Source: Pedobacter hartonius
Lineage (GTDB): Bacteria; Bacteroidota; Bacteroidia; Sphingobacteriales; Sphingobacteriaceae
Direction: 5' to 3'
DNA: 64,000 nt
Assembly (NCBI RefSeq): GCF_900107535.1
Contig: NZ_FNRA01000002.1
Location: forward strand, 124,001 to 188,000
A program made the translations under genes and the position numbers. Each line of letters starts with the position of its first letter. Position 1 is the stretch's first letter. The notes beneath the pieces were generated by a model. It saw only the letters and a list, made by a program, of their open reading frames with translations. It had not been told where the DNA came from and did not search any database. Positions 49,816 through 64,000 of this stretch are shown here, in pieces.

Positions 49816-52272
49816 ATGAATCCACTATATGCCATCACAGGAAAAACGCTTGCAGGTTTCGTCCTGCTTTTTTTATTTCCGTTCTGTCTTTCTGCCCAAC
49901 AGAAAACCAGGATCATTCTGCAAAGTTCAGAAAGAAGCCGTATCATCACCAAAACAGACATCACCTATTTAAGGAAACCTGTATTCAAACAGGACAATGC
50001 CATCCTTACCTGTGACAGCGCTGTTTTTTACACCGCAAAAAATTACTTTGAGGCCTATAAAAATGTACATATTAACCAGGCAGATACGATTAATATTTAT
50101 TCAGATTTTCTTACATACGATGGAAATGCCAAACTTGCGCATTTAACAAGCAACGTGCGCCTGGTGGACAAAAGCTCAGTATTGACAACAAATATACTGG
50201 ACTACAGTATGGTGCCAAAGGTAGGTACTTACGTAGAAGGCGGTAAAATCGTCAATAAAGATGCAACCATCACCAGTAAGAACGGCTATTATTTCGCAAA
50301 CAGCAGGGATGCCTATTTCCGTTATAATGTGCTTGTCGTGACGGAACAAAGTACCATTAAGTCTGATACGCTGAGATACAATACGCTAACCAACTGGGCT
50401 TATTTCTACGGGCCTACCAACATCAAAGAAAAAGACGGCGGTAACCTCTACACAGAAAACGGCGCTTACAATACCAAAACCAGGTATGCCTATTTCGGAA
50501 AAAACAATCTATACACCTCCGGCAGCAGATCGATGAAAGGGGACAGCCTCTATTATGATGGTATTGCTGGTTACGGCAGGGCTGTAAGGAACATTACCTT
50601 CAGGGATACGGTAGATAAAATGCTGATGAGGGGTCAGCTTGGTTATTATTATAAGAGCGATCAGCGCACGGTGGTTACCAAAAATGCCTATGCAGGTATG
50701 GGAACGAATGATTCCATCATGGTGAAAGATATAAAACAGCCTGACAGTCTGTGGCTTGGTGCTGACACCCTTGAAACACAAATGGTGCTTCAGAAATCGC
50801 TGAAACTGATCAAAGGCCCCGCAATTAAAAAAGACAATGAACTGGGTGAAGAAGATCGTGAAAGCAAGATGAACGGCGTCAGTAAAAAATCTGCCGAACC
50901 TGCTAGGAAACCGGGCGTTGCCGGCCCTGGCGGAAATAAACCCGGACAAAAGCCTGATGACAAGAAAAAACCACCTGCGGGAGCAAAACCTCTCCTGCCA
51001 GGAGCCAAGGACAGTTTGAAGAATGACAGTTTATTAAAGGAGAAGGTGCCGGCAAAAAAGGCAGATTCCCTGCTTAAAGGAACGGCTCCGATTGTTGCAA
51101 AGGCAGATTCTGCTCTAAAAACGCCCGTCCCCGGTATAAAAAAAGATGCGGTTGCGGCGCTTTCCGTACCAGTTAATAAAAAAGATTCACTGAAAACCGA
51201 TAGCCTGAAACTGCCGCCTGGAATGAAGAAAGCCATTCCGGATGTAAAGGATAAATTGCCACCCGGAATGAAAAAAGCCGTCGTCAAAAAAGACAGCCTG
51301 CCGGTCAGTCCGCTCGATACCCTGCGTACGCGGAGCATAAAGGCGTACAGGCATGTGAATGTGTATAAATCCAATATGCAGGCAAAAGCAGACTCACTTT
51401 TTTACACCAGTGCAGATTCTACCTTACGATGGTATAGAAATCCGATCATATGGGCACAGGGTTCACAGCAGACCGGCGATACCATTTATTTGCAGCTCAG
51501 AAACAAAAAAATAAATTCTATCCAGGTGATACAAAATGCCTTTGCGGTAAACGTAGACCCTATAGATACCACAAAATTCAACCAGATCAAGGGCAAGCTG
51601 ATCACAGGATTTTTCAAGGACGGAAAGCTGAACAGCATGTATGTAGACGGCAACTCGGAAAGCGTTTATTTTACCAAAACCGATGATGGAAAGAAATACG
51701 AAAAGATGAACCAGACCGTTAGCAGCAGGATTAAGATCCTGTTCAGAAATGCTGAGATCGGCGATGTGGTACCCATAAAAAATGTAGAAGGTGCAACGAC
51801 ACCTGTGGCCGACATTAAACAGGAGGTGATCTTAACCGGGTTTGTATGGAAACCAGAGTTGAGGCCACGCTCCAAGAGAGATGTGACCAACCCGAAAGCC
51901 ATCGCTAAACCCAAAAAGACAGTCCTTGCAAAAACCCCTGCTAAAGGTTCAGAAAAAGCAAAGAAAGCAGCAGAAAATTTAAAAGCCGCGCCGAAAGGCC
52001 CCTCTTCTGCAATGGAGGCATTGCAACAGGCGGGAGGCCTCATTCCATCCGGCACGATCAAGCAACTCGGGAATATCGGGCAATCCGGAAGTACCAAACA
52101 GTTGGGAAACATCCTGCAGCCGGGGAACATCAGTCAGCTCAAAAGCGCCGCAGATTCTTTAAAAAGTAAGATCCCTGCCCCACTGACCGATACCCTGAAA
52201 AAAGCCTTACCTGGTTTAATGAAAAAAGCAGATTCCTTATCTAAACAGCCTGTGCTTTTAAAAAAGCAATAA
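49816..52272 (+). CDS. OstA/LptA-like envelope protein with low-complexity insertions
   Basis: The start MNPLYAITGKTLAGFVLLFL gives a clean signal peptide cleaved near LSAQ; an upstream GTG in frame would bury it. The 818-residue protein has an OstA-like N-terminal beta domain (about 25-340) with repeats such as NAILTCDSAVFYTAKNYFEA and SNVRLVDKSSVLTTNILDYS. A Lys/Asp/Ser/Pro-rich insertion (about 350-505, with KKDSL and LPPGMKKA repeats) follows. A second OstA-like segment (VNVYKSNMQAKADSLFYTSA) comes next, then a Gly/Gln/Leu-rich tail. LptA/OstA proteins take part in LPS transport to the outer membrane. The 3' end overlaps rdgB by 32 nt on the other strand. Confidence 0.83.
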   Translation: MNPLYAITGKTLAGFVLLFLFPFCLSAQQKTRIILQSSERSRIITKTDITYLRKPVFKQDNAILTCDSAVFYTAKNYFEAYKNVHINQADTINIYSDFLTYDGNAKLAHLTSNVRLVDKSSVLTTNILDYSMVPKVGTYVEGGKIVNKDATITSKNGYYFANSRDAYFRYNVLVVTEQSTIKSDTLRYNTLTNWAYFYGPTNIKEKDGGNLYTENGAYNTKTRYAYFGKNNLYTSGSRSMKGDSLYYDGIAGYGRAVRNITFRDTVDKMLMRGQLGYYYKSDQRTVVTKNAYAGMGTNDSIMVKDIKQPDSLWLGADTLETQMVLQKSLKLIKGPAIKKDNELGEEDRESKMNGVSKKSAEPARKPGVAGPGGNKPGQKPDDKKKPPAGAKPLLPGAKDSLKNDSLLKEKVPAKKADSLLKGTAPIVAKADSALKTPVPGIKKDAVAALSVPVNKKDSLKTDSLKLPPGMKKAIPDVKDKLPPGMKKAVVKKDSLPVSPLDTLRTRSIKAYRHVNVYKSNMQAKADSLFYTSADSTLRWYRNPIIWAQGSQQTGDTIYLQLRNKKINSIQVIQNAFAVNVDPIDTTKFNQIKGKLITGFFKDGKLNSMYVDGNSESVYFTKTDDGKKYEKMNQTVSSRIKILFRNAEIGDVVPIKNVEGATTPVADIKQEVILTGFVWKPELRPRSKRDVTNPKAIAKPKKTVLAKTPAKGSEKAKKAAENLKAAPKGPSSAMEALQQAGGLIPSGTIKQLGNIGQSGSTKQLGNILQPGNISQLKSAADSLKSKIPAPLTDTLKKALPGLMKKADSLSKQPVLLKKQ

Positions 52273-52822
52273 GCTTGCCCATCGCAATTCCGCGGTGACT
52301 GATCAGGTTTTTTTCTACCATATCCATTTCGGCAAAGGTACGGTCATAACCGTCCGGCTGGAAAATAGGGTCATAGCCAAATCCGTTGCCACCGGTTGCG
52401 CTTTCCCGTATCGTTCCCTCAATAGCGCCTTCAAACAGGAACCGTTGTCCATTTTGGATCAGTGAAACCACGGTTCTGAACCTCGCCTTCCTGTTTGTGA
52501 TACCTTGCATTTTTTGCAGCACCAGATTGAGGTTCGCTTCATCACCCCGCTGTCCTGCATAACGCGCAGAATATATTCCGGGTTCGTTGTTTAATGCTTT
52601 CACCTCCAGCCCGCTGTCATCAGCGAAACAGTTGAGCTTAAAGTTCTCCGCCACGAAACTGCTTTTTAGCTCGGCATTTCCAGCAAAGCTATCTGCCGTT
52701 TCAGGGATATCAGTAGTACAGCCAATATCGCCCAGGTTGAGTATTTCATATTGACCGGAAAGCAGGTTCCTTACTTCGTTTGTTTTATGCTGGTTATTTG
52801 TAGCAAATACTAATTGTCTCAT
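52241..52822 (-). CDS. rdgB: RdgB/HAM1-family non-canonical purine NTP pyrophosphatase
   Basis: This 193-residue enzyme hydrolyses (d)ITP and XTP to monophosphates, keeping deaminated purines out of nucleic acids. The start LVFATNNQHKTNEVRNLL is the substrate-binding block, followed by FADDSGLEVKALNNEPGIYSA and FRTVVSLI. TGGNGFGYDPIF and SHRGIAMGKL near the C-terminus complete the site. The ATG overlaps the stop of the upstream gene by 1 nt, so the two are translationally coupled. Confidence 0.95.
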   Translation of the reverse strand: MRQLVFATNNQHKTNEVRNLLSGQYEILNLGDIGCTTDIPETADSFAGNAELKSSFVAENFKLNCFADDSGLEVKALNNEPGIYSARYAGQRGDEANLNLVLQKMQGITNRKARFRTVVSLIQNGQRFLFEGAIEGTIRESATGGNGFGYDPIFQPDGYDRTFAEMDMVEKNLISHRGIAMGKLIAFLKAQAV

Positions 52823-53397
52823 TAAAATGTAAGTTGTTTAAGGCTGCCCCATAATTTCTTTTTCCCTTCCTGGTCTGCCGTGAGCAGATCCAGCCTGCCC
52901 GAAAAAACAAGCTGTATATCTCCATGCCTGCCGATAGCGTGCTGGGGCTGTTCGTTTAATCCAAGCTGTACAGGGCTCACCCCAAATCCAAGCACAAGTC
53001 TGCTACTAAAGAATTTGATCAGATCCTCAAATTTTGACTGTTGATAATCAAAATAATTTAACAGTGCAAAATCGTTTGCCGTAAGCTGCATGGCTTTCAC
53101 GAGATTTCTTAACAGCTCTCTTCCACTTTCCGAGCTTACGTCATGTTCACCATCATTTACCAGGATCAAAATATTCTTCTGGTTTTTACCCAGATATTTA
53201 AATACAGCTGCCGGAGCGGCTAACGGTTCCGGAGCAGGAAGAACAGATTTTTGTGCTGACTCCGGTACAGTCATGCGCTCTGATTCCTGTTTAGCAGCAG
53301 TACTAAAAGCTGTAGCCTCTTCGTTTTTTACAAGGTAAATATCATCAGTAAAAAATAAACGGAGTGCTTCAGCGCTTGTAGTCAATTGTTCAGCCAT
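52822..53397 (-). CDS. Unknown protein, possible DNA polymerase III psi (HolD)-like
   Basis: I do not recognise this 191-residue protein from a clear family motif. An N-terminal stretch (1-25), a variable Ala/Pro/Glu-rich linker (26-65) and an alpha/beta domain (70-191) can be seen. The domain has a core strand KNILILVND, helix RELLRNLVKAMQLTANDFAL, a second helix (SKFEDLIKFF), strands RLVLGFGV and IQLVFSGRLD, and an end KKKLWGSLKQL. The strand-helix-strand order and the closing LW resemble HolD, the psi subunit of the polymerase III clamp loader. The evidence is pattern only. It is coupled to rdgB. Confidence 0.55.
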   Translation of the reverse strand: MAEQLTTSAEALRLFFTDDIYLVKNEEATAFSTAAKQESERMTVPESAQKSVLPAPEPLAAPAAVFKYLGKNQKNILILVNDGEHDVSSESGRELLRNLVKAMQLTANDFALLNYFDYQQSKFEDLIKFFSSRLVLGFGVSPVQLGLNEQPQHAIGRHGDIQLVFSGRLDLLTADQEGKKKLWGSLKQLTF

Positions 53398-53508
53398 GAA
53401 TGGTGCATATTTTTTGGGAATATTTTTGTGTTAAAATTAGTTAAATATCCTATTATAGCGCCTTAATTTATTACTTTTATAGCTTAAAAATACCATAGTA
53501 AATCTTTT

Positions 53509-54096
53509 GTGAGAAAAACCTGCTGTATCATTGTTCTCTGTTTTTTCTATTTCGGTACTGTTGCACAAAGCGTTGCTGTTGTAAACGGCAATCCGATCAG
53601 CCAGAAGGAATTTGTATGGGTCTATAAAAAACACCGTCCCGGAAATGCCAAACCGACAATTACTGACCTCATCTCATTTTTGAATATATACATTGATTTT
53701 AAACTTAAGGTAGAGGATGCAAGGGCAGCAGGGCTGGACAAAGACAGCACCTATCTGACAGAGACCGGTAACTATGTAGCTGCTTTAATGGCCGCTATGC
53801 CGCCTGAAGCCAGAAATGCGGATTATTCCCTGGTCATCAACGAGTATAAGGAAGCACTTCTGCTTTTCAACATCTCACAAATAAAGATATGGGACAGGAT
53901 AGGTGAAGATGAGGATACCATACGCGAATATTACAATACCCATAAAGAACAGTATTCGTCAAAACCTTTTGACGATATACAAACTGAGGTAGCCGCAGAT
54001 TATCAGAAGAAAATAGAGTGCGACTGGGTGATCTCACTGAGGAATAAATACAAAATAACCATGGATCAGGAACTGCTGCGCAAGCTGAGCAGATAA
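53509..54096 (+). CDS. SurA-like N-terminal domain protein without parvulin domain
   Basis: This 195-residue protein starts at GTG, with a signal peptide (CCIIVLCFFYFGTVAQ). The mature part reads as a SurA-type chaperone: AVVNGNPISQKEFVWVYKKH, then helices DLISFLNIYIDFKLKVEDAR and EYKEALLLFNISQIKIWDRI. After EEYYNTHKEQYSSKPF-like residues, where a parvulin domain would normally begin, it goes straight to a C-terminal helix. No frameshift is evident. It lies 63 nt before a full SurA gene and may be a partner chaperone. Confidence 0.72.
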   Translation: MRKTCCIIVLCFFYFGTVAQSVAVVNGNPISQKEFVWVYKKHRPGNAKPTITDLISFLNIYIDFKLKVEDARAAGLDKDSTYLTETGNYVAALMAAMPPEARNADYSLVINEYKEALLLFNISQIKIWDRIGEDEDTIREYYNTHKEQYSSKPFDDIQTEVAADYQKKIECDWVISLRNKYKITMDQELLRKLSR

Positions 54097-54123
54097 TACT
54101 GTATACAAATGGTTGAATAATAG

Positions 54124-54131
54124 TAAATTTG
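54124..54131 (+). promoter_or_regulatory. Putative -7 element of the surA-moxR operon
   Basis: TAAATTTG ends 28 nt before the surA start, in the gap after the SurA-like gene. No -33 TTG at normal spacing, so partial read-through from upstream is also possible. Confidence 0.45.
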
Positions 54132-54159
54132 CAAATAAAATATAATTGAAGAAAGTATA

Positions 54160-55530
54160 ATGAAAAAAGTTTTATTGATGGCAAGCGGGTTGCTCTTCTT
54201 GTTTATGATGAATGTACAGGCGCAAACAAAGAGCGTGGATAAAGTTATAGCCGTACTTGGAAGTGACGTAATCTTACTGTCTGAACTCAACCAGCAATAT
54301 GTAATGTACCTGAATTCAGGTAACCCTGTTGACGAGAAAGTGAAATGTTATATCTTACAGCAAATGCTTGTTCAGCACCTGTTAAAACAACAGGCAGACA
54401 TTGACTCTGTGATGGTGGACGACAAACAGGTGGATGATGAGCTTGACCGGAGAATGCGTTACCAGATCCAGCGTGCCGGTGGCCAGGACAAACTGGAAGA
54501 ATTCCTCAATAAATCTGTGCTGCAGTATAAAGATGAACTGAGACCAGATGTTAAAGATCAGCTGCAGGCCAATAAAATGCAGGGAACAATTACCGAGAAA
54601 GTAAGTATAACTCCTTCGGAAGTTACAAAATATTTTGAGTCCTATAAAAAAGACAGCTTACCGGATATCCCTGCAGAATACGAAGTGGGAGAGATTACAC
54701 TGAATCCCGAGCTGACTAAACTGGAGAAACAGAGGTTCCTGGATAAACTGGATGCGATCAGGCTGCGTGTAAAAAGCGGTGAAGACTTTGGCTTCTTAGC
54801 AAAAACCTATTCCGAAGATCCGGGATCTGCCGCTGAGGGTGGCGACCTTGGTTTCTTTGACCGTACCATGATGGCCAAAGAATTTACAGCCTGGGCCTTC
54901 AAACTTAAACCAGGTGAACTTTCCCCGGTGTTTGAAACTGATTTCGGTTTCCACATCCTGCAGGTGATTGAAAGAAGGGGAGAACAGGTTCATGCCCGCC
55001 ATATTCTGATCCGTCCTCAAACTACCCCTCAGAGTTTAGAGCGCGCGAAATTGCATGCTGATAGTATTTACACGAACATTCAGGCCAATAAACTCAGTTT
55101 CTCTACCGCTGCTTCGCTGTATTCTGCTGATAAGGAATCGAAATACAATGGTGGAATGATCCTGTTTTCTGATAATGTGACTGCAAGAACAACATTCATC
55201 CCTGCCGATAAGTTAGACCCTAAGGTTTACCAGGTGATTGATACCATGAAAGTGGGCGAGATCTCAAAACCGGTGCCTTTTACAGGACAGGATGGCAAAG
55301 AAGGTTACAAAATTGTATTGCTGAAATCCAATGTCCCTGCTCATAAAGGAAATCTCGACCAGGATTATACGAAATTCAAGGATAAAGCACAACAACAGAA
55401 AAGTGACCGTATCATGAGTGAATGGTTTGAAAAAAGAAGAAAGAACACTTACATTAGGATTGATAAAGACTATCAGGAATGCAGTGAACTGAAGATCTGG
55501 ACCAAGCCTGAAACGACAGAAGCAAAATAG
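54160..55530 (+). CDS. surA: SurA-type periplasmic chaperone/peptidyl-prolyl isomerase
   Basis: This 456-residue protein has a signal peptide (MKKVLLMASGLLFLFMMNVQ, cleaved after AQA). The N-terminal chaperone domain (about 22-165) has VDKVIAVLGSDVILLSELNQ. Two parvulin domains follow. The first is around EYEVGEITLN to FETDFGFHILQVIERRG, with DFGFLAKTYSEDPGSAAEGG. The second is around HARHILIRPQTTPQS to VPFTGQDGKEGYKIVLL. A C-terminal segment closes it. SurA helps outer-membrane proteins fold on the way to BAM. The MoxR gene starts with no gap after the stop. Confidence 0.92.
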   Translation: MKKVLLMASGLLFLFMMNVQAQTKSVDKVIAVLGSDVILLSELNQQYVMYLNSGNPVDEKVKCYILQQMLVQHLLKQQADIDSVMVDDKQVDDELDRRMRYQIQRAGGQDKLEEFLNKSVLQYKDELRPDVKDQLQANKMQGTITEKVSITPSEVTKYFESYKKDSLPDIPAEYEVGEITLNPELTKLEKQRFLDKLDAIRLRVKSGEDFGFLAKTYSEDPGSAAEGGDLGFFDRTMMAKEFTAWAFKLKPGELSPVFETDFGFHILQVIERRGEQVHARHILIRPQTTPQSLERAKLHADSIYTNIQANKLSFSTAASLYSADKESKYNGGMILFSDNVTARTTFIPADKLDPKVYQVIDTMKVGEISKPVPFTGQDGKEGYKIVLLKSNVPAHKGNLDQDYTKFKDKAQQQKSDRIMSEWFEKRRKNTYIRIDKDYQECSELKIWTKPETTEAK

Positions 55531-56496
55531 ATGACAACATACCATAACGACATAGCGGCAGTTGATGCCCTACACCAGTCTTATATTGATATAAAAAATG
55601 AGATAAGTAAAGTCGTTATTGGTCAGGATGAAGCTGTAAAAGCTGTACTCATCTCTATTTTCAGCAATGGCCACTGTTTATTGGTTGGCGTTCCGGGATT
55701 GGCTAAAACGCTCCTGGTTCAAACCGTTGCAGATGTGCTTGACCTGAACTTTAACCGTATACAGTTTACGCCAGACCTCATGCCGGGAGATATCATCGGG
55801 GCAGAGATCTTAGGAGAAGACAGGAACTTTAAATTTATTAAAGGCCCTGTCTTCTCTAATATAGTACTGGCGGATGAAATCAACAGAACCCCTCCCAAAA
55901 CACAGGCAGCTTTACTGGAAGCCATGCAGGAAAAGGCTGTTACCGCAGCCGGATATAGGCATATCCTGCCAAAACCATTCTTTGTTCTTGCTACTCAGAA
56001 CCCAATTGAACAGGAAGGCACCTATCCCCTTCCGGAGGCACAGCTTGACCGTTTCATGTTCAATATCCAGCTTACCTATCCCAGCTTTGCCGATGAGCTC
56101 ACCATTGTCAGAAACTCTACCGGCGGCGATAGTATGACGCTGAGAAAACTGATCAATGCCGATCAGATCCAGTTCTTTCAGCAGCTGATCAGAACGATCC
56201 CTGTAACCGATAACGTATTGGAATATGCAGTGAAACTTACCGGGAAAACACGCCCCGGAAGCCCGCTGGCAACACCTGAAGTAAAGCAGTATGTAAACTG
56301 GGGTGCAGGCCCGAGGGCATCGCAATTCCTGATCCTGGGTGCTAAATGCCACGCGGCGATATCCGGAAAATACTCACCTGACATCGAAGATGTACAGGCC
56401 GTGGCAGAAGCTATATTACGCCACAGGATCGTCAGGAACTACCGTGCCGAAGCCGAAGGTATTACGATCGAGAAGATCGTTAAGAACCTGCTTTAA
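55531..56496 (+). CDS. MoxR-family AAA ATPase
   Basis: This 321-residue AAA_3 ATPase has Walker A VGVPGLAKTLLVQT (53-60), Walker B VLADEINRTPPKTQ, sensor 1 ATQNPIEQEGTYPLPEAQLD with DRFMF, and a lid domain (AEAILRHRIVRNYRA). MoxR ATPases act as chaperones for metal insertion or complex assembly, often with VWA-domain partners. No DUF58 or VWA gene follows here, which is unusual: the downstream gene is on the other strand. The gene is fused in operon to surA at 0 nt. Confidence 0.94.
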   Translation: MTTYHNDIAAVDALHQSYIDIKNEISKVVIGQDEAVKAVLISIFSNGHCLLVGVPGLAKTLLVQTVADVLDLNFNRIQFTPDLMPGDIIGAEILGEDRNFKFIKGPVFSNIVLADEINRTPPKTQAALLEAMQEKAVTAAGYRHILPKPFFVLATQNPIEQEGTYPLPEAQLDRFMFNIQLTYPSFADELTIVRNSTGGDSMTLRKLINADQIQFFQQLIRTIPVTDNVLEYAVKLTGKTRPGSPLATPEVKQYVNWGAGPRASQFLILGAKCHAAISGKYSPDIEDVQAVAEAILRHRIVRNYRAEAEGITIEKIVKNLL

Positions 56497-56551
56497 CTGT
56501 AACTCTCTCAATTTAACCCTTATGACATGAACAGGAATGTATCTATAATAT

Positions 56552-57448
56552 CTACTTTTTCTTTGGCAACTCCAGGCGCATAAATAAATTAGGATAATCG
56601 GTAATGATCCCGTCCACACCCAGGCCAACCATATATTCCATATCCTTCAGGCTGTTTACCGTCCATGGAATGATCTTAATCCCTGCCGCATGACAGCGGT
56701 CCACCAACCCCTTACCCACCAGTACCGAATACGGGCTGTACACTGTAGGATTAAACCCAAGATCTCTGATGTTATTTTCAAAATCTTCCTTTTCATCAAT
56801 CATCAGCGCTGTTCTTATCTTCGGGTATTTTTCATGCACATACTGAAGGCTCCTGATATCAAATGCCTGAATAATGGTTCTCCTGCTCATTTTTTTTGCC
56901 TCTACAACATCCATCACCAACTGTGAGAATTCTGCCGGTTCGGGATGAAACACCAGGTCTCCCTTACGCACTGTTTTGATCTCAATCCCATAATCAGGCT
57001 TCGTTAATTTATGCAGCTTAACATAAGCCTCTACAGAATCGATCACCTCAGAAAGCAAGGGCTTATACGCTTTAAACTTTTGCTGCCCCGGAAACCTTTT
57101 GTGCACCTTACTCCCCACATCAAATTTCTTGATCTCCGTATAATCCATCTTATACATATTATAACTCTGTTCCTGCTTTAACGGAATAGGTTTCCCGGCA
57201 GGAGTCAGACTGATTTCATTGTTAAAATATGGCTCATGAGAAAGCACTACCTGGTTGTCTTTAGAGATCACCACATTCATTCCCAGTGTAGTTGCACCCA
57301 GATCCAGTGCCCTGAGCATTCCGGCAATGGTATTTTCGGGCATTAATCCACGGGCACCCCTGTCGCCCTGTTTGTCAAAAGTCTGTGCATGGACAACAGA
57401 ACCTGTTAGGGTAACCAGCAGCAATAGTATTTTGGTCTTCATCATCAT
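56552..57448 (-). CDS. GDPD-family protein lacking catalytic residues
   Basis: This 298-residue protein has a signal peptide (LLLLVTLTGSVVHAQ) and the TIM-barrel sequence of Bacteroidota glycerophosphodiester phosphodiesterases: PENTIAGMLRALDLG, ISKDNQVVLSHEP, DYGIEIKTV, and GIKIIPWTVNSLKDMEYMVG then GVDGIITDYP. At the start, however, GDRGARG stands where the family has GHRGARG (Asp29 for the catalytic His). LGMNVVI stands where LEMDVVI is expected (Gly56 for Glu, Asn58 for Asp). His71 and Glu156 are kept. It is therefore probably catalytically impaired. The frame is intact and full length. Confidence 0.85.
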   Translation of the reverse strand: MMMKTKILLLLVTLTGSVVHAQTFDKQGDRGARGLMPENTIAGMLRALDLGATTLGMNVVISKDNQVVLSHEPYFNNEISLTPAGKPIPLKQEQSYNMYKMDYTEIKKFDVGSKVHKRFPGQQKFKAYKPLLSEVIDSVEAYVKLHKLTKPDYGIEIKTVRKGDLVFHPEPAEFSQLVMDVVEAKKMSRRTIIQAFDIRSLQYVHEKYPKIRTALMIDEKEDFENNIRDLGFNPTVYSPYSVLVGKGLVDRCHAAGIKIIPWTVNSLKDMEYMVGLGVDGIITDYPNLFMRLELPKKK

Positions 57449-57488
57449 TCAAATAGGTTAGTAAATTTAAACAGCCACCCTGCTACAG

Positions 57489-57587
57489 GATAACCTTAAA
57501 AAAAATCGCCATGTGTTTCAAGGCCTTCCAGCGCACTTCAGCGGTAGACAGCCTTGAAACACATGGCGATTTTTTTCGCGAAGCCAG
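57489..57587. repeat. Hairpin element C (conserved core and flanks, variable arms)
   Basis: A perfect 26-bp inverted repeat (57499-57524 and 57551-57576) encloses a 26-nt centre with CTTCCAGCGCACTTCAGCGG. The left flank GATAACCTTAAAAAAAA and the right flank T-run plus GCGAAGCCAG match element B. It lies downstream of the NTF2-like gene and upstream of the GDPD-like gene and ends in T or A runs that could terminate on either strand. Confidence 0.82.
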
Positions 57588-57625
57588 AAAACACTCTTCT
57601 GACTAAAAATTAAACTGGTATAGTA

Positions 57626-58483
57626 TTAACGTTCAGTCGGCGTATAAATCTGCTCAATTAAGTTCCAGTTGTGATCAGGCTGACGTTCATAAATAAAAAC
57701 ATAGTTAAAGATCTCTCTAAGATCAGTTCTGTAATCTACCGTCGCCATGCCATAGGTATAAGCCAGGTCACCGCCATTCGCTTTATCTGCCTGTGTAGTT
57801 TTAAAACTGATCTTATCCACCACGCTATTGTAAAATGCTACAATTTTATCTTTACCAATGATCGGCTCGTATCCCGGAAAAAGAACACGTGCATCAGAGT
57901 TTAAGAAGCCGCCAAAAGCACCAATACCGTGTGATTTCAACATCGCACTCAGTGTTTTCTCTGTAGTCAGGATAATTTCCTTTCCGGCAGCAATTTGTTT
58001 AGGCCCGTTAAATTGTGGTTTGAAATAATCCTTAGGATCTACAAACTTATTCACTACCGGGTGCAGCGGCTTATTGTGCGTAGTTCCAAGGTCAAGTACC
58101 AGCTCCCATTTGCCATTGATGGCTTTCCAGACAGAAAGATATTGTCCATAAACCTTTTGGGTACCATCTACTACATAGCTGCCACTGGTGAAACCCCAGT
58201 CTGCACTACGTGAAACCTGTGCATAATCAGGAGTCCAGCTTAAATTTTTGTCGTTCGGCTGAGCAGCATAATAATTTCTTGCGTTTACCGGGTTCGGTCT
58301 GAAAACAAGTGCATTACCGGCACTAAAAGAGTTAAAGGCGGATCTTATACCATTTTTGGTTGCAGATTCGGCAAATTCCTGCTCTGCCTTTAACAATGAT
58401 TTTGTAGTGCCATCCGTACGCTGCGCGTAAGCGCCGAGGGTAATCGTTGCAGCCAACAGGGTGCAGATAAATTTATTGATCAT
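57626..58483 (-). CDS. Exported double NTF2/SnoaL-like (DUF4440-type) protein
   Basis: This 285-residue protein has a signal peptide (MINKFICTLLAATITLGAYA). Two cone-shaped NTF2-like domains follow in tandem. The first (about 28-145) has LLKAEQEFAESATKNGIRSA, DWGFTSGSYVVDG and VWKAINGKWELVLDLG. The second (about 170-283) has LSAMLKSHGIGAFGGFLNSD, GKDKIVAFYNS, TYGMATVDYRTD and PDHNWNLIEQIY. Function unknown; such domains bind small ligands or act as simple enzymes. Hairpin element C follows its stop. Confidence 0.8.
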   Translation of the reverse strand: MINKFICTLLAATITLGAYAQRTDGTTKSLLKAEQEFAESATKNGIRSAFNSFSAGNALVFRPNPVNARNYYAAQPNDKNLSWTPDYAQVSRSADWGFTSGSYVVDGTQKVYGQYLSVWKAINGKWELVLDLGTTHNKPLHPVVNKFVDPKDYFKPQFNGPKQIAAGKEIILTTEKTLSAMLKSHGIGAFGGFLNSDARVLFPGYEPIIGKDKIVAFYNSVVDKISFKTTQADKANGGDLAYTYGMATVDYRTDLREIFNYVFIYERQPDHNWNLIEQIYTPTER

Positions 58484-58513
58484 GTGATGTTATCGTATTT
58501 ATTTAGGGTTTCG

Positions 58514-59998
58514 TTAGATTTTATTCCAGGTAGTGCCTTCTTTACTGTCTTTTAGCTGAATACCAATGTCCTGAAGTCCTATACGGATCTTATCTGAAGT
58601 CACATAGTCCTTATTCTCTTTCGCGCTTTTGCGGATGTCGATCACCATATTCAGCACATCATTCAATTCAGTATTTGAGGTATCCTCATCCTTAAGACCA
58701 AAAATATCATATACAAAATCCTGCATCAGCTGTTTAAGGACCTCCAGTTCTGCGGACGAGATACGTCCTTTGCTGTCATACACCGTGTTAATGATCCGGG
58801 CTGCTTCAAACAATTCGGCAATCACTACCGGACTGTTAAAATCATCGTTCATTGCTTTTACGCAATTCAGCCTGATCGTTTCTATATCAAAATCGCTGGT
58901 ATCGGCAGGAACGAGTTTATCCAGCAGGCTGAGTGAGTTCATCAGTCTTCTGAACCCTTTTTCTGAAGCATCCAGTGCATCATTTGAAAAATCAAGCGTA
59001 CTGCGGTAATGTGCCTGAAGCATAAAAAACTTAACCGTCATCGGGCTGTATCCCTTTTTCAGTAAGGCATGTTCACCGCTAAAAAGCTGCAGTGGCATAA
59101 AACCGTTGCCGGCAGTCTTGGACATCCGCGATCCGTTAACCGTCAGCATATTCGTGTGCATCCAGTACTTTGCGGGATGTTTATGGTAACAAGCCTCAGA
59201 CTGTGCAATTTCATTGGTATGGTGGGTAGCAGCAAGGTCCATTCCGCCGCCGTGGATATCGAACTCAGCACCAAGATATTTTTCGCTCATGGCAGAGCAT
59301 TCAATATGCCAGCCCGGGAACCCTACTCCCCAGGGGGAAGGCCAGCGCATCAGGGTTTCAGGTTTGGCTTTTATCCACAGTGCGAAATCAAGCCTTCCGC
59401 GTTTCTCATCCTGCCCGTCAAGCTCCCTGGTATTGGCCATCATATCATCCAGGTTGCGGTTCGTCAGCACCGTATAATTATAATTCTGGCTATATTTTTC
59501 AACGTCAAAATACACTGTGCCATTTGTTTCATAAGCATAACCATTATCAATGATCTGGGTGATCATTTCGATCTGCTCAATAATATGTCCTGTAGCAGTT
59601 GGTTCGATGCTTGGCGGAAGCGTATTGAACATCCTGAGTACATCATGGAAGCCCAGGGTATACTTCTGAACAATCTCCATAGGCTCCAGCTGTTCCAGCT
59701 TTGCGCGTTTGGCAAATTTATCGTCGCCCTCGTCGCGGTCGCCCTCAAGGTGCCCGGCATCGGTAATATTACGCACATAGCGCACCTTAAATCCCAGATA
59801 TTTCAGGTACCTGAAAATCAAATCAAAAGAAATGAACGTACGGCAGTTACCCAAATGCACATCACTGTAAACAGTCGGCCCGCAAACATACATCCCTACA
59901 TGAGTACCATTCAGGGGTTCAAAATTTTCCTTCTTGCGGGTAAGGGTATTATATAGCTGTAAGCCGTGTTCCATTCGTATATATGATTTGTCGTTCAT
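58514..59998 (-). CDS. cysS: Cysteinyl-tRNA synthetase
   Basis: This class I synthetase of about 494 residues has the HIGH motif as HLGN (48-51) after the zinc Cys in MYVCGPTVYSD. Other zinc ligands are in GWHIECSAM and GGGMDLAATHHTNE. The KMSKS motif appears as GSRMSKTAGN, a conservative variant. The anticodon-binding C-terminal region is present. I chose the start MNDKSYIRMEHG; MEHGLQLYNTLTRK (59974) is equally possible. A still longer frame would start inside the promoter box. Cysteine is also a building block of bacillithiol, made elsewhere. Confidence 0.96.
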   Translation of the reverse strand: MNDKSYIRMEHGLQLYNTLTRKKENFEPLNGTHVGMYVCGPTVYSDVHLGNCRTFISFDLIFRYLKYLGFKVRYVRNITDAGHLEGDRDEGDDKFAKRAKLEQLEPMEIVQKYTLGFHDVLRMFNTLPPSIEPTATGHIIEQIEMITQIIDNGYAYETNGTVYFDVEKYSQNYNYTVLTNRNLDDMMANTRELDGQDEKRGRLDFALWIKAKPETLMRWPSPWGVGFPGWHIECSAMSEKYLGAEFDIHGGGMDLAATHHTNEIAQSEACYHKHPAKYWMHTNMLTVNGSRMSKTAGNGFMPLQLFSGEHALLKKGYSPMTVKFFMLQAHYRSTLDFSNDALDASEKGFRRLMNSLSLLDKLVPADTSDFDIETIRLNCVKAMNDDFNSPVVIAELFEAARIINTVYDSKGRISSAELEVLKQLMQDFVYDIFGLKDEDTSNTELNDVLNMVIDIRKSAKENKDYVTSDKIRIGLQDIGIQLKDSKEGTTWNKI

Positions 59999-60031
59999 TT
60001 TATTATGGGAAATTGTACATATCCCAGCTGG

Positions 60032-60039
60032 CAAAGGTA
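60032..60039 (-). promoter_or_regulatory. Putative -7 element of cysS
   Basis: TACCTTTG on the minus strand ends 33 nt before the preferred start, in the short gap behind the endonuclease/phosphatase gene. No -33 identified. Confidence 0.45.
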
Positions 60040-60055
60040 AAAATTTGCCGATATA

Positions 60056-61165
60056 TTAATTGATCCTTATGTCACTTCTTACAGGAAAATGGTCTGATAA
60101 TCTGGCCTGAATGATCCTGTGGTTAACTATTTTTATAGGCTTGGTTGCCGAGATATAATCTATCTGGAAATTAGGAAATTTTCCGTTATAGGTGCGGCCC
60201 AGCCCGATGCCTTCTTCAACAAAAGAATTATTCAGTGATTTGGTCAGCTGAGTCACTGCGTAAGAGGCCGGAGTATCGTTGAAATCCCCCGCAATCAGGA
60301 AAGGCGTAGTACATGTTTTCATATGTGCCTTCATGATATCCACCTGCCCGCTTCTCTTCACGAAAGCTGCTTTCAGCATTCTCAGGATCCTTTTGGACGG
60401 TGTAATCTTCGCATCCATTTCCGTTTTCACTTTATCAAGGTAGGTATAATCCTGTTTGTCAAATGATATCGATTGCAGGTGAACATTATAGACACGTATC
60501 TTTTTATCCTTCACCATAATGTCAACATAGATACTGGCATTGCCACCGTGGTTGGCGCTGAATATGATCGTTCCCTTGTCTACTATAGGATACCTGGAAA
60601 AGATGGCCAGCCCCATGGCTTCATAATTATTCTCTGAGCTGGGAATGAAATAATAATTAGGGCTCTTCAGCATATGCTTCAGGCTGTCGGTAATATCAAA
60701 AGGGCCTTTGCGCCGCGAGTAATATTCCTGAAAGCAGATAATGTCCGGATCTTCATTTTTTACTACGGCCAGCATCTGCTGTTTAACAGACTCATTGTTA
60801 TCCTCTCCATAAGGTTTAAAGCTATGCACATTATAAGTCATCATTCTCAGCAGATCAGGACTGGCTTTAGGGCCAACACCGTCTTCGCCCAGGAAACCTA
60901 TGGTAGCAATGAGTGCATGCCAGCCGGATGCAATGATCCCTGCAGTAAGCAGTGCGAAGATCAGTCTTCTCTGTAAAAGCCAGAAGATGATCATCAGGAC
61001 ATTCAGCAACAGGATAAAGGGGTAAGCCAGGCCAAAAAATGCGATCACAGCATGTTCACGAGGATCAAATTTACCTGCTACCATTCCCAGTACCAGTGCA
61101 AAGGCCAACACCACTGCGATGAGCACGTATATCCTGGTAAAAAATGTGGTTCTGCGTTTCTTCAT
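60056..61165 (-). CDS. Membrane-anchored endonuclease/exonuclease/phosphatase-family protein
   Basis: This 369-residue protein has three hydrophobic segments in the first 95 residues (about 11-30, 38-62, 68-90), then a soluble EEP domain. Motifs are MTYNVHSF, IICFQEYYS (metal Glu), VYNVHLQSI, LIAGDFNDTPAS (Asp, Asn) and RLSDHFPVRSDI at the end. EEP enzymes cleave phosphoester bonds in nucleic acids, lipids or sugars; the substrate here is unknown. The start overlaps the stop of the second rhomboid gene by 1 nt, so it is the last gene of the mutL operon. Confidence 0.9.
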   Translation of the reverse strand: MKKRRTTFFTRIYVLIAVVLAFALVLGMVAGKFDPREHAVIAFFGLAYPFILLLNVLMIIFWLLQRRLIFALLTAGIIASGWHALIATIGFLGEDGVGPKASPDLLRMMTYNVHSFKPYGEDNNESVKQQMLAVVKNEDPDIICFQEYYSRRKGPFDITDSLKHMLKSPNYYFIPSSENNYEAMGLAIFSRYPIVDKGTIIFSANHGGNASIYVDIMVKDKKIRVYNVHLQSISFDKQDYTYLDKVKTEMDAKITPSKRILRMLKAAFVKRSGQVDIMKAHMKTCTTPFLIAGDFNDTPASYAVTQLTKSLNNSFVEEGIGLGRTYNGKFPNFQIDYISATKPIKIVNHRIIQARLSDHFPVRSDIRIN

Positions 61166-62034
61166 TAACTTTTACTCGCCTTAAATAAGGTTTCCTTTTC
61201 CTCTTTACTCAATTTATCGTACCCTGATTTAGAAATCTTATCGAGGATCAAATCCACTTCTTTCTGGTTGACCTTATTGTTGATATTGTTCTTCGCCCCT
61301 GTTCCCGGTTTCTCATTTTTTACCACTTTCAGTTTCGGCTTTTTCTTAAAGATATTACTCCAGTCGTTCCCGTTTTGTAACAGCTTAATATAAAGAAAGC
61401 CCATAAATGCGCCTCCCAGGTGTGCAAAACTTCCGCCGGGATTAGCATACCCTATTCCAATCAGGTCAATCAGCAAATACACGAGCACCACATAACGCAG
61501 CTTTACGGTACCGATAAACATCAGTCCTATCGTATAATCCGGCAGAAGTGTGGTCACAGCAACGGCAATTGCCATCACTGAAGCTGAAGAGCCGATGATC
61601 TTAGCCGCATAAATAGTTGCTGAAAAAGGAGGAAATATATTGTAAGCCAGGGCAAAAAATACAGCCCCCATTACACCACCCGCAAGATATACAAAGTGGA
61701 ACTGCCTTGGTTTAAGGAAATCTATGAATATATTTCCCATCCAGAATAGCCACAACATATTAAACAGGATATGGAAAATATCCTCATGGAGGAACTGGTA
61801 GGTCAGTACCGTATAAAAACGAAAAGGAAGTTTTGGTAAAGCCGCGGGAAAGGCGAAATACTCCTTGGCATAGTCAAGAAACCTGATATTTGTATTACCG
61901 GCAAGAAAATAGGTGACACCAAAAAGTGCAACAGCTACAAAAACAATGGTATTGATCCCTATATAGAAAAACACCGGGTTCCCTGAACGGAAAACTTTAT
62001 ATTTTAGATCTGCTAAAAGATTATTCTTAGTCAT
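61165..62034 (-). CDS. Rhomboid-family intramembrane protease (second of tandem pair)
   Basis: This 289-residue six-helix membrane protein has HILFNMLWLFWMGNIF in the helix-2 region, the serine motif as IIGSSASVMAI (Ser150), where the common form is GASGAIFG, and the histidine helix GSFAHLGGAFMGFLYIK (His205). A soluble C-terminal tail follows (KKPKLKVVKNEKPG ... EVDLILDKISKSGYDKLSKE), which is common in this branch. It overlaps the preceding rhomboid gene by 8 nt. Ser and His are present, so activity is plausible; the Gly-to-Ala change in the GxSx motif is notable. Confidence 0.9.
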   Translation of the reverse strand: MTKNNLLADLKYKVFRSGNPVFFYIGINTIVFVAVALFGVTYFLAGNTNIRFLDYAKEYFAFPAALPKLPFRFYTVLTYQFLHEDIFHILFNMLWLFWMGNIFIDFLKPRQFHFVYLAGGVMGAVFFALAYNIFPPFSATIYAAKIIGSSASVMAIAVAVTTLLPDYTIGLMFIGTVKLRYVVLVYLLIDLIGIGYANPGGSFAHLGGAFMGFLYIKLLQNGNDWSNIFKKKPKLKVVKNEKPGTGAKNNINNKVNQKEVDLILDKISKSGYDKLSKEEKETLFKASKS

Positions 62035-62761
62035 AATAGTCGTAAAATGTATTTTTATCTTTCCAAATTTTCACTAAAATGAAGCCCAGCAGTGCTCCTC
62101 CGAGGTGTGCATAATGCGCTACGGAGTCTCCCGCCACACTGGCTACGCCCAAACTCAGTTCTATCAAAATATATACGGGGATAATGTACTTAGCTTTTAC
62201 CGGCACGGGGATGAACATGATAAACAGTTCCGCATTTGGATAAAGCATTCCAAAGGCAACGAGCAATCCGAATATCGCACCGGATGCACCGATCATAGGC
62301 CCGAAATAAATACCATATAAAGTTGAAGCCTGGGCAGGCGAAAACTGTGCGGTATTATAAAGCCTTTGTTCCAGAGATTCTAAAGAAAGGACACTATGGG
62401 CAAGAGGTGTCCCTGCAATCTGATAGATCTCAAATGCCTGTACGGCCCATTGTAATGCCAGCGCTCCCAGACCTGTAATCAGATAAAAGTTTATAAAACG
62501 TTTGGCGCCCCAATGCGCTTCCAGTACAGAGCCAAATGTATAAAGCGCAAACATATTAAAGATGATGTGCGACCAGCCCCCGTGCATAAACATATAAGTA
62601 ACAGGTTGCCAAACCCTGAAATAGGGAGAGTCTACATAAAAGGCACCAAGATACTCTGCAAGTTCAATTCCCTTACTTTCCATGATTAAAGTAGCGGCAA
62701 AGAACAGCCCGTTAATGATGAGCAGGTTTTTAACAACCGGAGGTATGTGAATAGTATTCAT
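62027..62761 (-). CDS. Rhomboid-family intramembrane serine protease (first of tandem pair)
   Basis: The start MNTIHIPPVVKNLLIING gives 244 residues and a 4-nt gap from the mutL stop; the longer in-frame start would overlap mutL. Motifs are MFMHGGWSHIIFNMFALYTF, the catalytic GASGAIFG with Ser160, and SVAHYAHLGGALLGF with His219. Rhomboids cleave transmembrane helices within the inner membrane. The gene is between mutL and a second rhomboid in one operon. Confidence 0.93.
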   Translation of the reverse strand: MNTIHIPPVVKNLLIINGLFFAATLIMESKGIELAEYLGAFYVDSPYFRVWQPVTYMFMHGGWSHIIFNMFALYTFGSVLEAHWGAKRFINFYLITGLGALALQWAVQAFEIYQIAGTPLAHSVLSLESLEQRLYNTAQFSPAQASTLYGIYFGPMIGASGAIFGLLVAFGMLYPNAELFIMFIPVPVKAKYIIPVYILIELSLGVASVAGDSVAHYAHLGGALLGFILVKIWKDKNTFYDYYD

Positions 62762-62765
62762 TTTT

Positions 62766-64000
62766 TTATTTATCAAATTTCTTATCCAGTTCTGTCAGCG
62801 ACATCGTCTGGATGACCGGTTTACCACTAATACTAAAATTTGGTGCTTTACAGGCAAACAATTGCTCAATGAGCATATTCATTTCTTCCTGCCCCAGCAC
62901 CACCCCACTTTTTATAGCGCTGTTCCTGGCCATGCTTCTGGCCAGTGCATCCCTTTTGTCAAGTCTCAGTTCCTGCTGGGAGTTTTTAAACCCCTCTATC
63001 AGGTGTTCAAAAAGCTGGGTCTCATTGATCTGGTTACTGCCCAGGTCAACAGGTATCCCTTCAATCACCAGCGTATTTTTTCCAAACTCGCGGACTTCGA
63101 AACCAAGGCTCTTGATATCATCAAGCAGGCTTTTGGCCAGCTCATAATCATTTGGGCTCAGCGTAACGGTTTGCGGGAAAAGACTCTGTTGGGAAGCTCC
63201 CTTCCTGTCTTCCAAATGCAGACTAAAACGCTCATAAAGAATTCTCTCGTGTGCCGCCTGCTGATCAATCAGCATCAGGCCCGATTTGATCTGCGAGATG
63301 ATATACTTGTTATGCAGCTGCATCAGCTGTTTCTGTACCGGTGCATATTTATCATCTGGCCCGTTTCCGGGCAATTCCATCGCTACCTGCTCAACAGGGT
63401 TGTGATTGGCGATCTCATAAAGTGATCCCCAGTTTTTGGTGCTCTGCTCCCTGTTTTCGCCACTCCTGAAAGCGGTAAAACCGCGCTCAGCCCGCTCGGG
63501 CGACTTCTCTTCACTGAACGGATTAAAGTCAGGATTAAAACTGATACTCGGAGGCACAATCTCATCAAGGGATTTAGGACTGATCATACCGCTGAAAGCC
63601 GTTTCCTGGTCAAAATCTATAGTCGGACTGATGTTAAACCGTCCCAGAGAGCGCTTTACCGCTGAGTGGATAATGGCATAAATAGACTTTTCATCCAGGT
63701 ATTTGATCTCCGTTTTAGTCGGATGCACATTCACGTCAATCTTAGCCGGGTCAATATCTATGAAAAGCACGTACAAAGGAAAGTTATCCTCTGCCAGCAG
63801 CTCCTCGTAAGCCTTATTCACGGCATGGTTCAGGTAAGCGTCCTTAATAAAACGGTTGTTCACAAAAAAGAACTGCTCTCCCCTTGTTTTTTTAGCAAAC
63901 TGCGGTTTACCAATAAAGCCTTTCAGGTTGATGATCGTTGTTTCTTCTTCCACGGGGATCAGTCTTTCATTATAGTTGTTACCAAACAAATGAACGATCC
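62766..64000 (-). CDS. mutL: DNA mismatch repair protein MutL (5' truncated)
   Basis: The N-terminal ATPase beginning lies beyond the window. Visible are the transducer part (GFIGKPQFAKKTRGEQFFFV with VNNRFIKDA, and DVNVHPTKTEIKYLDEKSIY), a linker and the C-terminal dimerisation domain. The C-terminal domain has LIDQQAAHERILYE where nuclease-type MutLs have DQHA-x2-E, and APNFSISGKP in place of the CPHGRP motif, so it probably lacks endonuclease activity. It couples MutS to downstream repair. The first codons inside the window read IVHLFGNN. The rhomboid genes follow in the same operon. Confidence 0.95.
   Translation of the reverse strand, partial: IVHLFGNNYNERLIPVEEETTIINLKGFIGKPQFAKKTRGEQFFFVNNRFIKDAYLNHAVNKAYEELLAEDNFPLYVLFIDIDPAKIDVNVHPTKTEIKYLDEKSIYAIIHSAVKRSLGRFNISPTIDFDQETAFSGMISPKSLDEIVPPSISFNPDFNPFSEEKSPERAERGFTAFRSGENREQSTKNWGSLYEIANHNPVEQVAMELPGNGPDDKYAPVQKQLMQLHNKYIISQIKSGLMLIDQQAAHERILYERFSLHLEDRKGASQQSLFPQTVTLSPNDYELAKSLLDDIKSLGFEVREFGKNTLVIEGIPVDLGSNQINETQLFEHLIEGFKNSQQELRLDKRDALARSMARNSAIKSGVVLGQEEMNMLIEQLFACKAPNFSISGKPVIQTMSLTELDKKFDK

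Follow-up and report, generated by a model that had tools for sequence, protein, structure and literature searches.

We have found that a gene of the GDPD family, located in a stretch of 64,000 nucleotides from Pedobacter hartonius (the window), encodes an intact protein with an altered active site, and that the site is altered in its orthologs throughout the genus. With a probability of about six in ten, we consider this protein to be a secreted pseudoenzyme with a non-catalytic role, most likely the binding of a ligand or partner at the face of the old active site. The loss of activity, the export and the ligand binding that make up this reading are inferred from sequence.

The protein and its active site

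The gene and the relevant positions are the following, in coordinates of the window:

56552 to 57448, minus strand, gene of the putative GDPD-fold pseudoenzyme, open frame with an ATG start, 298 amino acids
57386 to 57448, minus strand, probable Sec signal peptide, residues 1-21, read as ending in VVHA before QTFD
57362 to 57364, minus strand, codon 29, GAC, Asp (His in intact proteins)
57359 to 57361, minus strand, codon 30, Arg, kept
57281 to 57283, minus strand, codon 56, GGA, Gly (the metal ligand Glu in intact proteins)
57275 to 57277, minus strand, codon 58, AAT, Asn (the metal ligand Asp in intact proteins)
57236 to 57238, minus strand, codon 71, CAT, the second catalytic His, kept
56975 to 56983, minus strand, codons 156-158, Glu-Ile-Lys, with E156 and K158 kept

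Inspection of the frames showed many stops on the plus strand across 56552-57448. The protein belongs by profile to the Pfam GDPD family (PF03009), which it matched over residues 30-287 with an E value of 1.2e-28, covering positions 2-243 of the 244 in the profile with 101.3 bits against a cut-off of 23.6. An AlphaFold2 model built from 80 aligned sequences reached a mean pLDDT of 94.9 and had solved GDPDs as its top structural matches, pointing to the GDPD version of the TIM barrel. The best of these matches was 3ch0 (Z 41.4, rmsd 1.4 over 267 residues), also the nearest solved structure by sequence. This GDPD of Cytophaga hutchinsonii has the fold in common with the window protein and is 44% identical to it, but in the alignment it still has the HRG His and the metal-site Glu and Asp, which the window protein lacks. 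The putative signal peptide contains no Cys and the new N-terminus would be a Gln, a start that fits the Q-rule for exported Bacteroidetes proteins as stated in the available text of PMC10653852. The protein is thus predicted to be exported or secreted.

In the numbering of the window protein the intact site, HREDHEK, consists of His29, Arg30, Glu56, Asp58, His71, Glu156 and Lys158; we assign the roles of both His and of the acidic metal ligands as published for GDPDs (PMC4926365; PMC10404611). The window protein reads DRGNHEK and keeps four of the seven (R30, H71, E156 and K158). As an initial annotation of this DNA had claimed, three residues are lost, with D29, G56 and N58 in the place of His, Glu and Asp, and each change is one base away from the usual codon (GAC, GGA and AAT against the His, Glu and Asp codons). 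Regarding catalytic competence, the first His and both acids of the E-x-D metal site are therefore missing, and the second His, the third metal ligand Glu and the following Lys are present.

Distribution, descent and selection

Orthologs were collected by Pfam and protein searches of the genome of the window and its relatives, plus a scan of named genomes. Of 400 genomes examined in the order, matches came from 130 of the same genus, which places the gene in Pedobacter, and the best match outside the genus had 54% identity. Every same-genus ortholog among the matches listed was read. Second loci of the same gene (L001, L006, L007, L008 and L010), fragments (L100, L101 and L104) and five identical sequences (L125, L146, L149, L150 and L151) were left out before the counts, and 136 distinct proteins remained after removal of duplicates. 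All of them are 290-305 amino acids long and none was found broken.

HREDHEK is kept in none of the 136. Instead there are 26 different versions of the site, the largest being KAEDQEK (58 proteins), NRKEQEK (11), QRGNHEK (8), NRNNQEK (7) and HQNGHES (7). The comparison with homologs that the initial annotation had proposed gave HREDHEK in 54 of 54 proteins outside the clade; these came from other genera, from further families of the class and from paralogs in Pedobacter, and represent a sample of the matches in other genera. Among the 136, H29 is retained in 27, R30 in 63, E56 in 67, D58 in 71 and H71 in 30, with Gln or Ala at position 71 in 106; E156 and K158 are mostly kept. We looked at the seven sites for a residue lost in all 136 orthologs and found none, and neither was one shared inactivating substitution found among them.

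These numbers bear on the idea that the proteins are weak or partial phosphodiesterases, for example opening cyclic phosphates, or are active in some subclades only. According to the available text of PMC10404611, the E78A and H93A mutants of Staphylococcus aureus LpgD were deficient with a phosphodiester substrate and stayed folded, and E78A lost stabilisation by Mn2+. H51A, on the other hand, kept significant activity, and E78A and H93A were active on the cyclic intermediate, which would leave room for residual chemistry. Mapped by motif order, E78, H93 and H51 would correspond to positions 56, 71 and 29, so that the changes to G56 and N58 should weigh more heavily than the one to D29. Besides, both His and the three acids are kept in five orthologs (HQDDHEA/S), which might retain some activity, and in six others H71Q is the sole difference at the site. 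Against this, 50 of the 136, the window protein included, have one of the three acidic metal ligands left and are very unlikely to bind metal; 118 have lost one or both catalytic His, which would compromise acid-base catalysis. We therefore regard a partial phosphodiesterase as improbable.

In the tree all altered proteins group in a single clade nested within the intact family, with support 100/100 (96 rows) and SH-aLRT 99 (136 altered and 20 intact rows), in both cases with the seven catalytic columns left out. The minimum numbers of changes inside the clade at the seven sites were 11, 4, 18, 7, 3, 1 and 4, 48 in all. The intact rows of the 96-row tree showed no change at any of these sites, and the intact part of that tree was longer than the altered part (19.2 vs 11.4 changes per column). 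Either H71Q preceded the other changes, with later reversion in two subclades, or there were two or more separate initial losses. Grouping every Q71/A71 row in a single clade was not rejected (p-AU 0.186), which leaves room for either order.

Intact Pedobacter paralogs are about 38-49% identical to the window protein and keep HREDHEK. The search for other GDPD copies that the initial annotation had advised gave three other GDPD proteins in the genome of the window, together with a frame-broken remnant of a closer, intact-type paralog on contig C18 (L104:2663-3144), whose longer pieces are 67-78% identical to the intact-type paralog of another species (L097). Intact-type paralogs were broken in three genomes (L100, L101 and L104), as against 136 of 136 altered genes at full length. 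One Pedobacter genome carries two intact-type GDPD genes in tandem (L103:1995-3815), a duplicate pair of which one copy is on a long branch. That the altered protein is an obligate partner of a close intact paralog is not supported, since the genome of the window has only the broken remnant and six same-genus genomes gave one match each at E 1e-40 among the matches listed.

Selection on the altered gene was estimated by codon omega, which was 0.028 in the subclade of the window, 0.027, 0.019 and 0.028 in three other subclades, 0.023 for 44 KAEDQEK proteins and 0.030, 0.056 and 0.025 in three intact groups; since synonymous change is near saturation at these depths, the values show strong constraint and not fine differences. 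The six closest pairs within the subclade of the window gave pairwise dN/dS values of 0.04-0.08. The dN/dS comparison suggested at the outset has thus indicated strong constraint. These results dispose of gene decay, of a loss in the very recent past and of an error in sequencing, the last two of which the initial annotation had considered and which the single-base distance of every change in the window would favour. Independent genomes give the same picture, omega lies as low as for the intact relatives and the gene is at full length in every ortholog. None of the 16 proteins in the subclade of the window has E56 or D58, each of the 136 lacks some residue of the site, and other lineages carry changes at least two bases away (e.g., K29 as AAA or AAG). 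For the family as a whole we consider these explanations refuted, with hardly any weight left to them.

We compared the conservation of 94 clade and 40 intact rows, taking a column as relaxed when at least 95% of the intact proteins but less than 85% of the clade had one residue. Out of 51 near-invariant intact columns, 10 were relaxed, seven of them with radical swaps (29, 30, 56, 58 and 71 in the active site, and 194 and 216 at strand ends) and three with conservative ones. The replaced residues look maintained and not simply drifting: 16 of 16 proteins in the subclade of the window have Gly56 and Asn58, with all four Gly codons in use at position 56, and Ala30 appears in 59 proteins with all four Ala codons. 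Elsewhere drift was apparent, position 29 being Q, H, D, N or S within the same 16 proteins, and position 56 being N, I, V, T, S or L in the x-R-x-N-Q subclade. Another 31 positions are specific to the clade, with one residue in at least 95% of the clade proteins that fewer than 50% of the intact proteins share. With faces assigned from secondary structure, 24 of the 31 fall on the active-site face as we chose to define it, against a background of 148/263 (p 0.008), and 17 of the 31 in the loops of that face alone, against 109/263 (p 0.079). This modest enrichment is suggestive only.

Taken with the genus-wide alteration of the site and the strongly purifying selection, the clade-specific invariant residues make a function retained without catalysis, as the initial annotation had contemplated, appear well supported. 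Its label of pseudoenzyme holds regarding the lost essential residues and the retention by selection; the absence of activity is a prediction from sequence alone.

A retooled enzyme, with the old chemistry lost and a new reaction carried out by other residues in or near the pocket, would also account for part of this pattern. Several of the 31 clade-specific invariant positions are polar and on the active-site face, and clade-invariant residues such as E72, N76, D218, E219, Y240 and K246 are candidates for such a reaction. The strong purifying selection and the fixation of several own pocket residues in each large subclade would fit it as well, and a retuned enzyme would likewise keep E156 and K158 in most orthologs. 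We hold it unlikely, however, since with 26 versions of the pocket a shared reaction would have to use other residues only, and we have no candidate reaction.

We tentatively entertain, as a version that could well be wrong, that the non-catalytic role came first. Once the gene had been inserted where it now lies, new residues would have become conserved across the genus, and catalysis would have been lost afterwards at least twice (or once with back-substitution to His), each lineage re-specifying and maintaining the pocket as a binding site. Candidate re-specified pockets include the pair K29/A30, often joined by E194, and the pairs K56/E58 and G56/N58. If this were true, Pedobacter would offer a set of natural trials of how an enzyme becomes a binding protein.

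The locus and the origin of the gene

The surroundings of the gene contain the following features:

57626 to 58483, minus strand, upstream neighbour, gene of a secreted DUF4440 protein of 285 amino acids
55531 to 56496, plus strand, convergent neighbour, gene of a MoxR-type AAA ATPase
57501 to 57574, no strand assigned, perfect inverted repeat of 24 bp, flanked on either side by T runs, in the gap that separates the DUF4440 and GDPD genes

The GDPD gene is located directly downstream of the DUF4440 gene in 31 of 32 Pedobacter loci with long flanks, mostly with the convergent MoxR gene beyond, and by coordinates the two are adjacent, with the same orientation, in 67 of 69 genomes of the genus. 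The exceptions are G264, where they lie near the ends of different contigs, and G129 (L063 and L219), where 26 kb separate them; the ortholog of G129, the most divergent of all (NRKEAEK), is away from the usual place and on the strand opposite to DUF4440.

Such a constant neighbourhood might indicate that the two proteins work as a secreted pair, which we find doubtful. The DUF4440 protein is present in 278 of 301 genomes of the family, and at 16 DUF4440 loci of other genera there was no GDPD gene (0/16), with MoxR on the far side of DUF4440 in 12 of them. As DUF4440 stands in the same place there without GDPD, the adjacency is weaker as evidence of partnership and may only mark a landing site. 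The separation in G129 and the inverted repeat with T runs between the genes in the window also speak against a pair. This repeat is probably a two-way terminator and is found as a single copy in the genome; other hairpins were observed in the same gap in some relatives, and none in many.

The region 52241-63989 of the window corresponds to a block (RdgB-...-SurA-like-MoxR / DUF4440-CysS-EEP-rhomboid-rhomboid) that is kept across genera of the family. In some Pedobacter subclades (L064, L055, L058 and others) an M28-like protein is found between CysS and DUF4440, where the window has none; from its sequence, we presume that it is probably a glutaminyl cyclase.

As the DUF4440-MoxR block lacks GDPD in other genera, a single insertion of the GDPD copy near the root of Pedobacter is most likely. 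For the favoured reading of a secreted pseudoenzyme, we propose that this copy, which by synteny would have landed between DUF4440 and MoxR, took on a secreted, non-catalytic role. The metal-binding and acid-base residues, no longer needed for hydrolysis, would then have been replaced along several routes, with the barrel, most of the pocket and the new clade-specific residues held under strong purifying selection.

Comparison with known inactive GDPD proteins

Family profiles name this protein glycerophosphodiester phosphodiesterase across the whole genus, probably wrongly. We have found no report on a Pedobacter GDPD pseudoenzyme in the open-access literature, a scope outside which most subscription journals and bioRxiv fall. 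Free-living bacteria offer here many natural swaps of active-site residues on one scaffold, which are directly comparable and could address what the barrel does after catalysis ends, and whether the loss precedes or follows the new role.

There are previous examples of inactive GDPD proteins. Mycoplasma pneumoniae MPN566 and Treponema pallidum GlpQ are GDPD homologs in which essential residues are not conserved and for which no glycerophosphodiesterase activity is reported, and disruption of MPN566 gave no phenotype in a Mycoplasma that has a second, active GlpQ (PMC3178575). These earlier cases were reported without a function. Like the Pedobacter protein, they are GDPD-like and have lost essential residues; however, the bacteria that carry them belong to other phyla and are host-adapted, whereas the Pedobacter protein is found genus-wide with the site rewritten in many ways. 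Inactive GDPDs were therefore already known; the Pedobacter case is unusual in that it extends over a whole genus, that the site was lost by many routes and that the changed residues are maintained.
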